Source: an uncultured Eubacteriales bacterium (lineage in GTDB: Bacteria; Bacillota; Clostridia; Oscillospirales; Oscillospiraceae). Taken from it: 64,000 nucleotides of DNA. The stretch is from NCBI GenBank assembly GCA_900317905.1, contig ONIN01000006.1, forward strand, positions 21,575-85,574, read 5' to 3'. The position numbers and the translations under genes were made by a program. This document shows positions 45,965-52,760 of this stretch, one piece after another; position 1 is the stretch's first letter; each line of letters starts with the position of its first letter. Below the pieces are notes generated by a model that was not told the DNA's origin, made no database searches, and saw only the letters and a list, made by a program, of their open reading frames with translations.

Positions 45965-46387
45965 TCAGATGTGGCGTTTCTTTGCCATGTGCGCGGCGTT
46001 CTGTCTGGAGATGGCTCGAAGGAGCGCGGCCTCGGCGCGGACGATGTCCAGATCCGGGGTGCGGTTTTCAAGACGCTCTCTGGCGCGCTTTTCGGCGGCG
46101 ACGGCACGGTCGAGATCGATGTCCTCGGCGTTTTCCGCTGCCCGCACCAGGATCTTCACCTCGTTTTGCACCACGTTGACCACGCCGATGCCCACAGCGG
46201 TATAGTCCTTGGAGCCGTCGGAATGGGTGATCTCCACCACGCCGGTGGACACGGCCCCCATCAGAGGCGCGTGGTCGGCCAGCACGCCGATGCTGCCGCC
46301 GTCCAGCGGGATGTTGACGGCAGAGGCCTGCCCGTCATAGACCACGCCTTTGGCGGTGACGATCTGCAGATGGATGCGGTCGTCCAT
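45965..46387 (-). CDS. atpC: ATP synthase F1 epsilon subunit
   Basis: A 140-residue epsilon subunit of the central stalk. The N-terminal beta-sandwich (IHLQIVTAKGVVYDGQASAV, then HAPLMGAVSTG) and the C-terminal helical hairpin (AAEKRARERLENR onward) are both present, so the ATP-inhibitory domain is retained. It is the last gene of the operon. Its ribosome binding site (GAGGTG) lies within the end of atpD, 3 nt away. Confidence 0.94.
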   Translation of the reverse strand: MDDRIHLQIVTAKGVVYDGQASAVNIPLDGGSIGVLADHAPLMGAVSTGVVEITHSDGSKDYTAVGIGVVNVVQNEVKILVRAAENAEDIDLDRAVAAEKRARERLENRTPDLDIVRAEAALLRAISRQNAAHMAKKRHI

Positions 46388-46390
46388 GGC

Positions 46391-48671
<2,281 letters not shown>

Positions 48672-48743
48672 AGCCGCACCTCCTTTCAATGGATGATTTT
48701 CCGCAGTTGGCGAGGAACGGTTCCCCGCCCTGCTGTTGGTTCA

Positions 48744-50981
48744 TCAGAATGTCTCTTTGAATGCTTCGATCACGCCGCGGAGCTCGGTGAGGCGCTCGGC
48801 GGGGAGCTTCTTGCCGGTGAGGATCTCGTCTCTGAGACCGGGCAGCTTCCGATGGACTTCATTCAGCAGCCCTTCCTCAAAGGCGGCCACCTTGTCCAGC
48901 GGGTATTCGTCGGTGTAGCCCTCGGCGGCGGCGAAGATGGAGACCACCTGGTCGGCCGCGTCCATGGGCTGATACTGGGGCTGCTTCAGAAGCTCGGTCA
49001 TGTGCGCGCCGCGATCCAGGGTCTGTCTCGTGGCCTTGTCCAGATCGGAGCCGAACTGGGCGAAGCTCGCCAGCTCGCGGTACTGGGCCAGATCCATTCT
49101 CAGACGGCCTGCCACCTGCTTCATGGCGCCCAGCTGGGCCGCGCCGCCCACACGGGAGACGCTCAGACCCACGTTCACCGCCGGACGGATGCCGGAGTGG
49201 AACAGGTCGGTCTCCAGGAAGATCTGACCATCGGTGATGGAGATCACGTTGGTGGGGATATAGGCGGAGATGTCGCCGGCCTGGGTCTCGATGATGGGCA
49301 GGGCGGTCATGCTGCCGCCGCCCAGCTCCTCGGAGAGTCGGGCGGCGCGCTCCAGCAATCTGGAGTGCAGATAGAACACGTCGCCGGGGTAGGCCTCGCG
49401 TCCGGGCGGACGCTGCAGCAGCAGAGAGATCTCGCGGTAGGCCACAGCCTGCTTGGAGAGATCATCGTAGATGATGAGAACGTCCTTGCCTCTGTACATG
49501 AAAGCCTCACCGATGGCGGCACCGGCGTAGGGCGCGATGTAGAGCATGGGCGCGGGCTCCGACGCATGGGCGCAGACCACGGTGGTGTAGTCCATGGCGC
49601 CGTTGGAGCGCAGCGTCTCCACCACGCTTGCCACAGTGGATTCCTTCTGACCGATGGCCACATAGATGCACAGCACGTCCTTGCCCTTCTGGTTCAGGAT
49701 CGTGTCGATGGCAATGGCGGTCTTGCCGGTCTGGCGGTCGCCGATGATCAGCTCACGCTGGCCGCGGCCGATGGGGATCAGAGCGTCGATGGCCTTGATG
49801 CCGGTCTGCAGCGGGACGCTGACGGGCTGACGGTTCAGCACGCTGGGGGCGGGACTCTCGATGGCGCGGTGCTCAGTGGCCTCGATGGGGCCTCTGCCGT
49901 CCACCGGGCGGCCAAGGGCGTCCACCACGCGGCCAATCATGCCGTCGCCCACGGGAACCTCGATGATGCGGCCAGTGCGGCGGACGCTCATGCCCTCCTG
50001 CACGTGCTCGAAGTTGCCCAGCAGAACGACGCCCACGTCCTCCTGCTCCAGGTCCATGACCATGCCTCTCAGATCGCCGGGGAACTCCAGCATCTCGCCG
50101 GCCATGACGTCGGCCAGGCCGGAGACGCGGCAGATACCGTCGGAGACGCTGATGACCTCGCCGGTCTGGAACACGTCGATGTCCGTGTCCGGGGCCTCCA
50201 GCTTTTTGCGGATGCCCTCGGCGATGGACTGGGTCTCCTTGTCGCTGCGCATCGTGGCGTTCTCCACGTCCTGGGTCAGGCGGTCGAGGGAGTGGGCCAG
50301 AGTGCCGTCATAGACGGTGTCGCCCACGCGCATCTTCACGCCGCCGATCAGATCCTTGTCCACCTCGTTGTGGCAGGAGATGAAGGTCTCGCAGATGATC
50401 TGCGTCAGCTTCTTCATTTCCTCCTCGGTAAGGGGCTCGGCGCTGGAGATGGAAATATCCAGTTTCTTTAATTCATTCATAGTCAAAATGTCACTCGGCA
50501 TTGCTGCCACCAAATTCCTGATCTGCTCGATAAAGCTGTCTGTGAGTCCCTGCCGTGCCTCGGCATAGCGATCCTGCTTCAGCGCCTCGCCGGTGAGCTC
50601 CGCTACCCGCTTGAGTGCCTTTTGCTGAACCCGGCGCTCCATGTCGTCCCGGAGCTGCGCTTCCGACTGCTCGGCGCTGAGACTGAGCGCCTCCACCTCT
50701 TCGGCACGTTCGGCGGCAGCGGCGCGGCTGTTCTCCTCGGCGCGGTCGGCTGCCTCCTGCAGCATGGCCGCGTGGGCGGTTGCCGCTTCGGCGTTGGCGG
50801 CGCTGATGTCTGCCTGGACACGCTCAGCGTCGGCGCGGGCGGTCTCAGCGTCCTCCAGATCCTTTGCGATCCGATCCTGACGGCCCTTGAAGGTCTTGGC
50901 AATCAGCTTCCGTGTCAGGAAGAACAGGGCGCCGAAGAGAATCAGGAAGTTGATCAGGCTGTACAGAAATTCTTTCCACAT
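48744..50981 (-). CDS. Fused ATP synthase b'-delta-alpha polypeptide
   Basis: One uninterrupted 745-codon frame. Residues 1-27 are a membrane anchor ([20 protein letters not shown]) and 30-160 an Ala/Glu/Arg-rich coiled coil, together an F0 b-type stator subunit. Residues 174-243 match the delta (OSCP) C-terminal domain: [33 protein letters not shown], ending [11 protein letters not shown]. Residues 244-745 are a complete alpha subunit with Walker-type GDRQTGKT at 414-421. The delta N-terminal domain is missing. Mycobacteria have a known b-delta fusion, but the extension into alpha is not one I recognise. It begins 7 nt after atpF. Met244 (ATG 50250-50252) is where alpha normally starts, so internal initiation could also make free alpha of 502 residues. 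Confidence 0.87.
50240..50266 (-). promoter_or_regulatory. Possible internal translation start for free alpha subunit
   Basis: Minus strand: GTGGAG followed nine bases later by ATG (50252-50250), exactly where standard alpha proteins begin ([19 protein letters not shown]). The Shine-Dalgarno is weak. Initiation here would give a 502-residue alpha, the usual length. Confidence 0.35.
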
Positions 50982-50988
50982 GTCCCGA

Positions 50989-51414
50989 TCACCTCTTTCC
51001 CGCCAGCAGCGCGGCCGTCAGGGTTTCCACCAGCTCCGGCATCTGCGCCTCGAGGGTTTCCTCCGCCGCGGCCTCCTCCTTCTGGAGCTGGGCCTTGGCG
51101 TCCTTCATGGCGTCGGCGTTCTGCTTGTGAGCCTCGGCCAGGGCGTCGGCCCGGGCCTTCTCATCCCTGGCGCGGGCCTCAGCCAGAAGCTGGGCAGCCT
51201 CGGCGGCCTTGGCCTTGCACTTTTCCTGCAGCGCCCGGTCGTTGGCCTCTCGGGCGGCCTCGGCCTCTTTGCCGGCGGCGATGCCCGCGTCCACCTTCGC
51301 CTTGCGCTCGTCCATGAAACGGATCAGCGGATCAAAAAGCAGTTTTTTCAGCACAAACAGCAGCACGAGAAAGCAAAGGATCGTCCAGATCAGTTCTGAA
51401 ACGTTGATGCTCAA
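50989..51414 (-). CDS. atpF: ATP synthase F0 b subunit
   Basis: A 141-residue stator subunit. The N-terminal membrane helix ([20 protein letters not shown]) is followed by the conserved [13 protein letters not shown] turn and a long Ala/Glu/Lys coiled coil. The start is TTG, with AGGAGG eight bases upstream. It is the second b-type sequence in the operon, because the next gene begins with another; this suggests a b/b' heterodimer like that of mycobacteria or cyanobacteria. The C-terminus is short compared with E. coli b (156). Confidence 0.92.
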
Positions 51415-51450: not shown

Positions 51451-51681
51451 TCAGATCTTGCCGACCAGCATGAAGGCAATGACGAGGCCGTAGATGGTCA
51501 GCGCCTCCATCATGGCCAGAGCCACGATCATGTTGGTACGGATGGTGCCGGCGGCTTCCGGCTGACGGGCGATGGCCTCCATGGCCTTGGCGGCGGTGAG
51601 ACCCTGGCCGATGGCGGGGCCCAGCGTGCTGAATGCGATGGCGATGGCTGCGGCCAGCGCAATGATAGCGGATGCGGTCAT
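51451..51681 (-). CDS. atpE: ATP synthase F0 c subunit (rotor ring)
   Basis: A 76-residue hairpin of two membrane helices joined by the polar loop ARQPEA. The ion-binding Glu is in helix 2 (MMEALTIYG, Glu about residue 59). Helix 1 carries the Gln of the sodium-binding signature (GPAIGQG). However, the residue after the Glu is Ala, whereas sodium-type rings such as Ilyobacter have Ser there. Coupling to protons is therefore likelier, but the motif is intermediate. The ribosome binding site TAGGAGG is excellent, as expected for the most abundant subunit. Confidence 0.96.
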
Positions 51682-51729: not shown

Positions 51730-52413
51730 TTATTCTTCCTCGCCGAGGGCCTCGGTGAGATAGATGGACACCAGCATGGTGAACACCATGGCCTGAATCA
51801 GACAGAACAGCAGACTCAGCACATGCATCACGATGGGCAGACCGATGGCGGCCAGACCGCCCAGCTGCTCCGCTGCCAGCTCCTCGCCGTAGAGGTTGCC
51901 GTAGAGTCGCAGCGACAGGGAGACCGGGTGGACCACCTGCTCGATCAGGTTCAGCGGCAGCATCAGGATGCACAGGAACATGGGCTGCATCAGGCTTTTG
52001 AAGTAGCCGCCCACGCCCTGATGGCGGATGCCCTCTTCCTGCACTACCACGAAGCTGATGGCAGCCAGCGCCGCCGTCACCGACAGGCTGGTGGTAGGCA
52101 CCGCGAAGACGCTTCCGGCGCCGGGCAGCAGGCTGGAGTAGTTGGAGACGACGATGAAAATGAAGAATGTCGCCATCAGCGGGAAGTACCGCCGCATGTT
52201 TTCTTTTCCGAGAATGCCGCCGAAGAAGCCCTGCAGCGCCTCAATGGCCATCTCTGCCGCGTTCTGCAGCTTTCCGGGAACGGCCTTCAGATTCCGGGTC
52301 GCGAGAAAACTGAAAATCGCCAGCACGGCCACCAGCACCCACATGGATACGACGGTTTTCGTCACCTCCAGCGGGCCGATGGAAAACAATACGTTTGCTT
52401 CATGCAAGGTCAT
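51730..52413 (-). CDS. atpB: ATP synthase F0 a subunit
   Basis: A 227-residue membrane subunit forming the ion half-channels. The essential Arg is in SLSLRLYGNLYGEELA (about residue 150) and helix 5/6 contacts lie in HVLSLLFCLIQAMVFTMLVSIYL. The first catalytic-region block is NAAEMAIEALQGFFGGI. Length is typical of Firmicutes. It overlaps the upstream atpI-like gene by 4 nt (ATGA), so the two are translationally coupled. Confidence 0.95.
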   Translation of the reverse strand: MTLHEANVLFSIGPLEVTKTVVSMWVLVAVLAIFSFLATRNLKAVPGKLQNAAEMAIEALQGFFGGILGKENMRRYFPLMATFFIFIVVSNYSSLLPGAGSVFAVPTTSLSVTAALAAISFVVVQEEGIRHQGVGGYFKSLMQPMFLCILMLPLNLIEQVVHPVSLSLRLYGNLYGEELAAEQLGGLAAIGLPIVMHVLSLLFCLIQAMVFTMLVSIYLTEALGEEE

Positions 52414-52760
52414 TCACCTCCCTCGTCCGCAGCCTCCGGTTTCGGAGCGCTGTCCATTTCCTTTTTCATCTGTCTCGTCAGCCGCAGCACAAACAGCGGA
52501 TTCGCCGCCGAGAGCACCAGCGCGCAGCTTAAGAGCGTTGCGTAGAAGTTCATGGGAACCATGTTTCTGGTAAAGAAGATCAGCGCCAGCACCGCAAAGT
52601 TTACCACCATGCGGGCGAAATTCGTGGCGGTCACTGCGGCCAGACCGTCGCCGCCGTTGCGCTTCACCGCCGCACGGGTAATGCACATATTCAAATATCC
52701 CGCAAGGATACCCAACACCGCGCCGACTGCAATGCCCAGCGCGATCTCGCCGTAGTTCAT
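52410..52760 (-). CDS. atpI: ATP synthase subunit I-like membrane protein
   Basis: A 116-residue membrane protein with about four hydrophobic segments at the head of the atp operon, the position of AtpI, an assembly factor for the c-ring and possibly a cation channel. Sequence similarity to AtpI families is generally weak, so the call leans on size, topology (LGIAVGAVLGILAGYLNMCI, FARMVVNFAVLALIFF) and the 4-nt overlap with atpB. The C-terminal tail is charged (KKEMDSAPKPEAADEGGE). Confidence 0.78.
   Translation of the reverse strand: MNYGEIALGIAVGAVLGILAGYLNMCITRAAVKRNGGDGLAAVTATNFARMVVNFAVLALIFFTRNMVPMNFYATLLSCALVLSAANPLFVLRLTRQMKKEMDSAPKPEAADEGGE

Follow-up and report, generated by a model that had tools for sequence, protein, structure and literature searches.

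A natural fusion of a b'-type stalk arm, the delta C-terminal domain and alpha in ATP synthases of Oscillospirales, and a candidate multi-stalk enzyme

An uncultured bacterium of the Oscillospiraceae encodes, in a single uninterrupted frame of 745 codons, a b'-type membrane anchor with its long helix, the C-terminal domain of delta (OSCP) and a complete alpha subunit of the F-type ATP synthase. The triple fusion is real and is shared by many relatives. The attachment of b' to alpha, in addition to that of the delta C-terminal domain, appears to be new. We consider it probable, at about 0.6, that this protein belongs to a natural ATP synthase with more than one peripheral stalk and a raised ion/ATP ratio, a reading built on the sequences and on analogy with an engineered enzyme.

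The fused gene and its operon

The features found in the window, i.e., the whole stretch of 64,000 nucleotides analyzed here, are collected in Table 1. The fused gene starts with ATG, ends with TGA and has no internal stop codon. In a Pfam scan, ATP-synt_B matched residues 5-126 with 39.6 bits (cut-off 28), OSCP matched residues 169-237 with 48.9 bits, and ATP-synt_ab_N, ab and ab_C all fell within residues 273-741. TIGR00962 (atpA) covered residues 250-745 with 799.6 bits against a curated cut-off of 484.45, using positions 4-501 of the 503 in the model, which places the alpha part among F-type alpha subunits over the full model. The OSCP match spans only positions 98-170 of the 172 in the profile; the delta N-terminal domain is therefore absent, and the protein has the C-terminal domain alone of the complete two-domain delta (PF00213). 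No second OSCP match was found in the draft genome of the window at E 0.001. The chain combines two layouts: a delta C-terminal domain without its N-terminal domain is in frame with alpha, and delta is itself preceded by an anchor and helix of the b type. With the whole fusion as query, PRK13428 (NF009961, cut-off 328 bits) lay outside the best 25 of 63 NCBIfam families.

The intact frame together with the Pfam and TIGR00962 matches bears out the preliminary description, in which a triple fusion had been read from one 745-codon frame; its domain limits (1-160, 174-243 and 244-745) are correct to within a few residues. It had also taken the parts to be joined directly with no linker, which is nearly so, except that about residues 246-252 form a variable, low-confidence linker.

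Table 1. The fused gene, its parts and the surrounding atp operon, in positions of the window.
Feature	Position	Strand	Basis
AtpI-like small membrane protein, weak match	52410..52760	-	ATP-synt_I 18.3 bits, under cut-off 25.1
Subunit a	51730..52413	-	Pfam and NCBIfam
Subunit c	51451..51681	-	Pfam and NCBIfam
b subunit encoded on its own (141 aa), probably pairing with b'	50989..51414	-	Pfam and NCBIfam
b'-deltaCTD-alpha fused gene, 745 aa	48744..50981	-	Open frame, Pfam and NCBIfam
b'-type part, residues 1-160, with N-terminal membrane anchor and a long helix	50502..50981	-	Pfam ATP-synt_B, AlphaFold2 helices
Delta (OSCP) C-terminal domain, residues 171-245, without N-terminal delta domain	50247..50471	-	OSCP profile, AlphaFold2, Foldseek
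Delta-alpha linker, variable, residues 246-252	50226..50246	-	pLDDT below 50 (residues 245-250), dN/dS 0.496 (residues 237-250)
Internal ATG (Met244), GGAG upstream, alpha-start-like, non-conserved	50250..50252	-	Sequence and relatives
Full alpha subunit (residues 250-745; motifs: Walker A GDRQTGKT, SVSRVGG)	48747..50234	-	TIGR00962, alignment
Gamma subunit	47808..48689	-	Pfam and NCBIfam
Beta subunit	46391..47773	-	Pfam and NCBIfam
Epsilon subunit	45965..46387	-	Pfam and NCBIfam

The gene order is ordinary by Pfam and NCBIfam: AtpI-like, a, c, b, the fusion, gamma, beta and epsilon. As the operon has its own b gene besides the b' of the fusion, the cell has two b-type parts, one free and one fused. 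Among 68 distinct triple-fusion loci, a separate b frame lies just upstream of the fusion in 67 (the exception is L043), and 65 of these 67 frames have a hydrophobic anchor within the first 60 residues; L045, being in the wrong frame, was left out of the seeds of the b-gene search model. The RL(Y/F)GN motif of subunit a, which we take to carry the essential arginine, was detected in 65 of the 68 loci, and an overly strict pattern for subunit c in 17.

A V/A-type A-subunit homologue occurs in seven of the ten genomes of the genus at E 1e-100, none of them above the curated cut-off of the model, so that the role of the F-type enzyme may be a different one. In its extreme form, this reading would make the complex a divergent F1-like machine with some other job and no ATP synthase at all. 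We regard that as very improbable, since the other subunits in the operon (a, c, b, gamma, beta and epsilon) belong to normal families, Walker A and SVSRVGG of alpha are invariant or nearly so across the alignment of triple fusions, and subunit a keeps its motif at the frequency just given. RnfD is encoded in eight of the ten genomes of the genus and, taken with the V/A-type homologue, makes it likely that an ion pump is present besides the F-type enzyme. In the genome of the window, the V/A-type homologue and RnfD lie at G000:C23:108110-109846 and G000:C37:9753-10679.

Conservation of the fusion

The fusion protein was matched in all ten genomes of the genus and the delta-alpha junction was spanned in nine. 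The match in G585 ends with its contig after residue 184, short of the junction, while that in G581 begins at residue 134 and that in G588 is split in two fragments. A stop codon or frameshift near the junction in relatives had been set beforehand as the test of the fusion, and none was found in the nine junction-spanning genomes of the ten; the frame is open across the junction in the seven genus sequences that were aligned. OSCP matches were obtained in nine of the ten genomes, every one inside positions 94-170 of the profile.

Across several families of the order, at least 79 triple-fusion rows with at least 68 distinct junction peptides were pooled, the window's own among them. The pool consists of 59 contig loci and 20 rows from genome searches, two sources that overlap, with triples classed by frame length. 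The contig loci come from a scan of named contigs, in which the best 80 of 365 relatives comprised 59 triple fusions, two deltaCTD-alpha fusions and 19 loci without an in-frame alpha motif. The last are mostly separate delta genes; two (L132 and L174) are incomplete and one (L203) is a 793-aa frame that is possibly a triple. The carriers are assemblies of Clostridia and Oscillospiraceae, many from animal guts, and include records of Candidatus Cacconaster stercorequi, an uncultured Oscillibacter, Christensenella sp. UBA3857 and bacterium MS4 / 'Amazonia massiliensis' (L141).

Each of the 68 distinct triple fusions carries a hydrophobic anchor toward its N-terminus, and a simple delta motif was matched in 63 of them. 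For eight pairs selected among five sequences of the genus, dN/dS was below 1 in every segment, from 0.125 in alpha to 0.496 in the linker (residues 237-250), with 0.323 in b', 0.307 in the b'-delta link, 0.219 in the delta domain and 0.311 in the N-helix of alpha. The genome of the window is a draft of 38 contigs that is 79.6% complete, which leaves room in principle for an assembly or sequencing error that erased stop codons. Such an error is hardly credible here, as the same fusion recurs in at least 68 distinct sequences from many assemblies, and an assembly artefact was rejected.

Predicted structure and comparison with known systems

AlphaFold2 was run on 20 sequences; L045, which has masked residues, was omitted from the folded alignment. 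The full model reached a mean pLDDT of 73.5 and pTM of 0.54, and a model of residues 1-262 reached 79.6 and 0.43. Only the local folds were used, because the models are moderate, the placement of their parts is unreliable and pieces of alpha are of low confidence. Helices are predicted for b' at residues 2-134 and 137-157, and the delta C-terminal fold is predicted to extend to residue 245 (E175-180, H186-197, E202-207, E215-219, E222-225 and H228-245). The linker to alpha has pLDDT below 50 at residues 245-250.

In a Foldseek search with the whole model, three chains of 9jc1 ranked first (E 1e-57 to 1e-60, TM 0.49-0.51 by query, rmsd about 16). The same entry was on top in a sequence search of the PDB, where residues 180-745 aligned with 10-576 with one gap column at the junction. 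With residues 1-262, mycobacterial b-delta chains ranked first at E about 1e-5 and a TM of only about 0.24, and weak fold matches of the b'-delta arm to V-ATPase stalk chains were also obtained.

The entry 9jc1 is the FoF1 of Bacillus PS3 engineered by Ueno et al. in 2025, in which the delta N-terminal domain was removed and the remainder was fused to alpha (PMC12229609). Cryo-EM particles of this enzyme had 0, 1, 2 and 3 stalks in 15, 51, 26 and 8% of cases, respectively; by gel it contained about two a-subunits on average, about twice the wild type, and its H+/ATP was 5.8 against 3.0, with a pumping activity lower than that of the wild type (PMC12229609). The authors blamed grid preparation for the loss of stalks and called stably bound stalks necessary (PMC12229609). 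They also suggested that multi-stalk enzymes possibly exist in nature, pointing to natural delta-alpha fusions without the delta N-terminal domain, likely multi-stalk, in Acidaminococcus fermentans and in UniProt G4Q3K6 and A0A1I2C5T3 (PMC12229609). Compared by description only, these proteins resemble the window protein in having delta on alpha and lacking the delta N-terminal domain; they differ in that the window protein also has b', and the Discussion of that paper mentions no joined b. The window fusion agrees with 9jc1 in the missing delta N-terminal domain and in the delta C-terminal domain on the N-terminus of alpha, with the difference of a single gap column. Unlike 9jc1, it is natural and has b' in the same chain, which gives the stalk a covalent connection to the head, and its partner b comes from a different gene. 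With b' joined to delta-alpha, every alpha brings half a stalk.

The mycobacterial b-delta enzyme has one stalk. V-type ATPases have several peripheral stalks per head, unfused to it; the window protein resembles them in the weak fold matches of its arm and differs in being made of different subunits. As in the delta/b fusion of mycobacteria and Gordonia (Niu 2017, PMC5709465; structures such as 7nkq and 7jg5), a b-type anchor and helix is fused to delta in the window protein, whereas alpha is a separate chain there (7jg5_A). The N-ATPases (TIGR03321/TIGR03324) likewise have no separate delta subunit (PMC5706428). Membership among them was rejected, since the window alpha scores 650.5 bits with TIGR03324, below its cut-off of 750.5 and below the score for ordinary atpA, and the operon order is ordinary.

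No description of b joined to delta-alpha was found in the literature searched, which did not include preprints and most subscription journals, nor does the triple fusion figure in the excerpted COGcollator account (PMC5706428). The joining of b-delta to alpha had at first been put down as unfamiliar. This appears to hold for the joined b' and does not hold for deltaCTD-alpha, which is known, has been engineered (PMC12229609) and is common in the order.

Is alpha also made on its own?

It had been argued from the start that, with three alphas per head, there must be three anchors as well, barring processing of the protein or parallel production of free alpha, and this was the right question. 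If free alpha were supplied by an internal start or by proteolysis, one fusion and two free alphas would give an ordinary one-stalk enzyme. In the window alone, an internal start looks convincing: Met244 is an ATG where alpha would begin, with GGAG nine bases upstream. The codon is AGG in G586, which is 99% identical, and is not ATG in five other aligned members of the genus. Over 68 distinct junctions, the window's own included, an ATG with a Shine-Dalgarno-like match occurred in the alpha-start region in six, compared with 0-19 in eight control stretches. When every kind of start codon was admitted, the count with a Shine-Dalgarno-like match rose to 12, compared with 8-38 in the controls; ATG, GTG and TTG are all missing from this region in 19. 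Synonymous change is not lowered in the linker (pS 0.441 against 0.402 in alpha, for a small region). Since Met244 is unconserved, starts are unenriched and synonymous change is unreduced, a conserved internal start for alpha finds no support as an escape from the three anchors, and Met244 was rejected in this role. As regards proteolysis, the linker is variable in the alignment of triple fusions and no conserved cleavage motif was seen in it by eye. Free alpha by either route is improbable, although processing by proteolysis may occur.

Met168 (MNELKKLD), a possible start of a free deltaCTD-alpha, is present in seven of 11 sequences, and the separate gene of G041 starts near the same place. 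It is an unlikely start, as no Shine-Dalgarno-like match was seen upstream by eye and the residue is missing in G079, G584 and G004.

An ordinary alpha encoded elsewhere was also sought. No second alpha gene was found in 13 of 15 genomes with a triple fusion by the family and order searches, the window genome included; some of the 13 are incomplete (G000 79.6%, G139 66%, G304 62%), and these drafts leave some doubt. The other two genomes, G148 and G235, have an extra canonical alpha beside the triple fusion.

A proposed multi-stalk enzyme

Known F-type ATP synthases have a single stalk and a single a-subunit. The delta N-terminal domain normally sits on the three-fold axis and is said to restrict the enzyme to one stalk. 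We propose that the 745-aa chain would serve as the working alpha at each of the three alpha sites in the head. Together with its delta C-terminal domain, every copy would bring a b' arm that reaches the membrane and pairs there with a free b. In the absence of the delta N-terminal domain, the number of b-b' stalks could reach three, and each stalk could keep an a-subunit of its own in contact with the c-ring. More ions would then pass per ATP, which would allow ATP synthesis at lower ion-motive force, and the covalent b' link would prevent the loss of stalks. By analogy with the engineered fusion, the natural enzyme would thus have more than one stalk and a raised ratio.

Alternatively, all three alphas may be fused while only one b'-delta arm forms a working stalk with b and a, the other two being free, head-bound or trimmed. 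Canonical F-ATPases are single-stalked. On grids, the engineered fusion had mostly one stalk (51%), with three in only 8% of particles (PMC12229609). Moreover, in some delta-alpha fusions of the order (664-706 aa) the delta N-terminal domain is retained wholly or in large part, and this is the domain said to permit one stalk; fusion alone, therefore, need not mean many stalks. Against this, the limiting domain is absent from the triple fusions, the hydrophobic anchor is kept in 68 of 68, and two idle membrane-anchored helices per enzyme would presumably be a steady cost. A single working arm is on balance unlikely, though it deserves serious consideration, and we favor the multi-stalk enzyme.

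Distribution and evolution

The census of the family covers 92 alpha rows from 150 genomes, classed by open-frame length and partly checked; most genomes in the counts are draft assemblies. At least 43 of the 92 rows are delta-alpha fusions, which are thus common in the family: eight triples (741-815 aa), 26 with no more of delta than its C-terminal domain (583-619 aa, apart from a tandem case of 681) and nine with full or nearly full delta (664-706 aa). The remaining 49 are free alpha or fragments, including two fragments of G103 that are possibly a fusion and were counted as unfused. Three rows (L066, L083 and L128) were dropped because the Walker pattern was unmatched. A sample of 197 genomes at the level of the order added seven more triples, from families f18, f19 and f20.

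A tree of 84 alpha domains was built by a quick method with SH-aLRT support only, the fused parts being excluded and L127 (cut at the 5' end) and L129 left out. All 20 triples and G041 form one clade with support 99. G041 (L053) has its delta C-terminal domain joined to alpha, and an apparent b' lies in a 242-aa frame of its own, which exceeds the usual b in length. As G041 lies inside the triple clade with b' apparently unfused, the b' link is not essential. The supported branches force a minimum of two changes in the triple label, five in deltaCTD-alpha and three in the full delta-alpha class. In another clade, four loci (L049-L052) have a free delta C-terminal domain gene of 72-76 aa beside free alpha, with fused relatives next to them in the tree; in a third, full delta-alpha fusions adjoin deltaCTD-alpha ones. 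These results suggest that the delta N-terminal domain was lost, and fusion took place, more than once and in differing orders.

Other arrangements were also seen. In L049, L050, L051 and L052 the delta N-terminal domain was lost without fusion, and these enzymes are possibly multi-stalk too. L079 (G015:C17:38055-40046) has tandem delta C-terminal domains before alpha in a 681-aa frame with two OSCP matches. Within the genus g65, represented by L080 (G143) and L090 (G064), one member has separate delta and alpha genes overlapping by four bases and the other a single 681-aa frame. L047 (G053) and L048 (G097) show an apparent joint of b and the delta C-terminal domain, 226-227 aa long, beside free alpha; the two fall outside the clade of the triples. 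L116 (G190:C26:150111-151589) is a 539-aa alpha with a short N-terminal extension that resembles only the last helix of delta.

A fuller picture, to which we give somewhat less than even odds, would have three covalently locked stalks, up to three a-subunits and an ion/ATP ratio of up to about three times one third of the c-number. In it, lineages of the order would have responded to low ion-motive force by losing the delta N-terminal domain and attaching parts of the stalk to alpha, step by step and repeatedly.

Implications

By engineering, Ueno et al. showed that an F-type enzyme is not bound to one stalk and that going beyond this limit doubles the ion/ATP ratio (PMC12229609). The triple fusions form a widespread natural family in which a part of the stalk is covalently bound to every alpha. 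If more than one stalk assembles, the ion/ATP ratio would be altered by the number of stalks and not by the size of the c-ring. A raised ratio would fit ATP synthesis at a low gradient and, if true, would bear on how ATP is produced near the energy limit of life.
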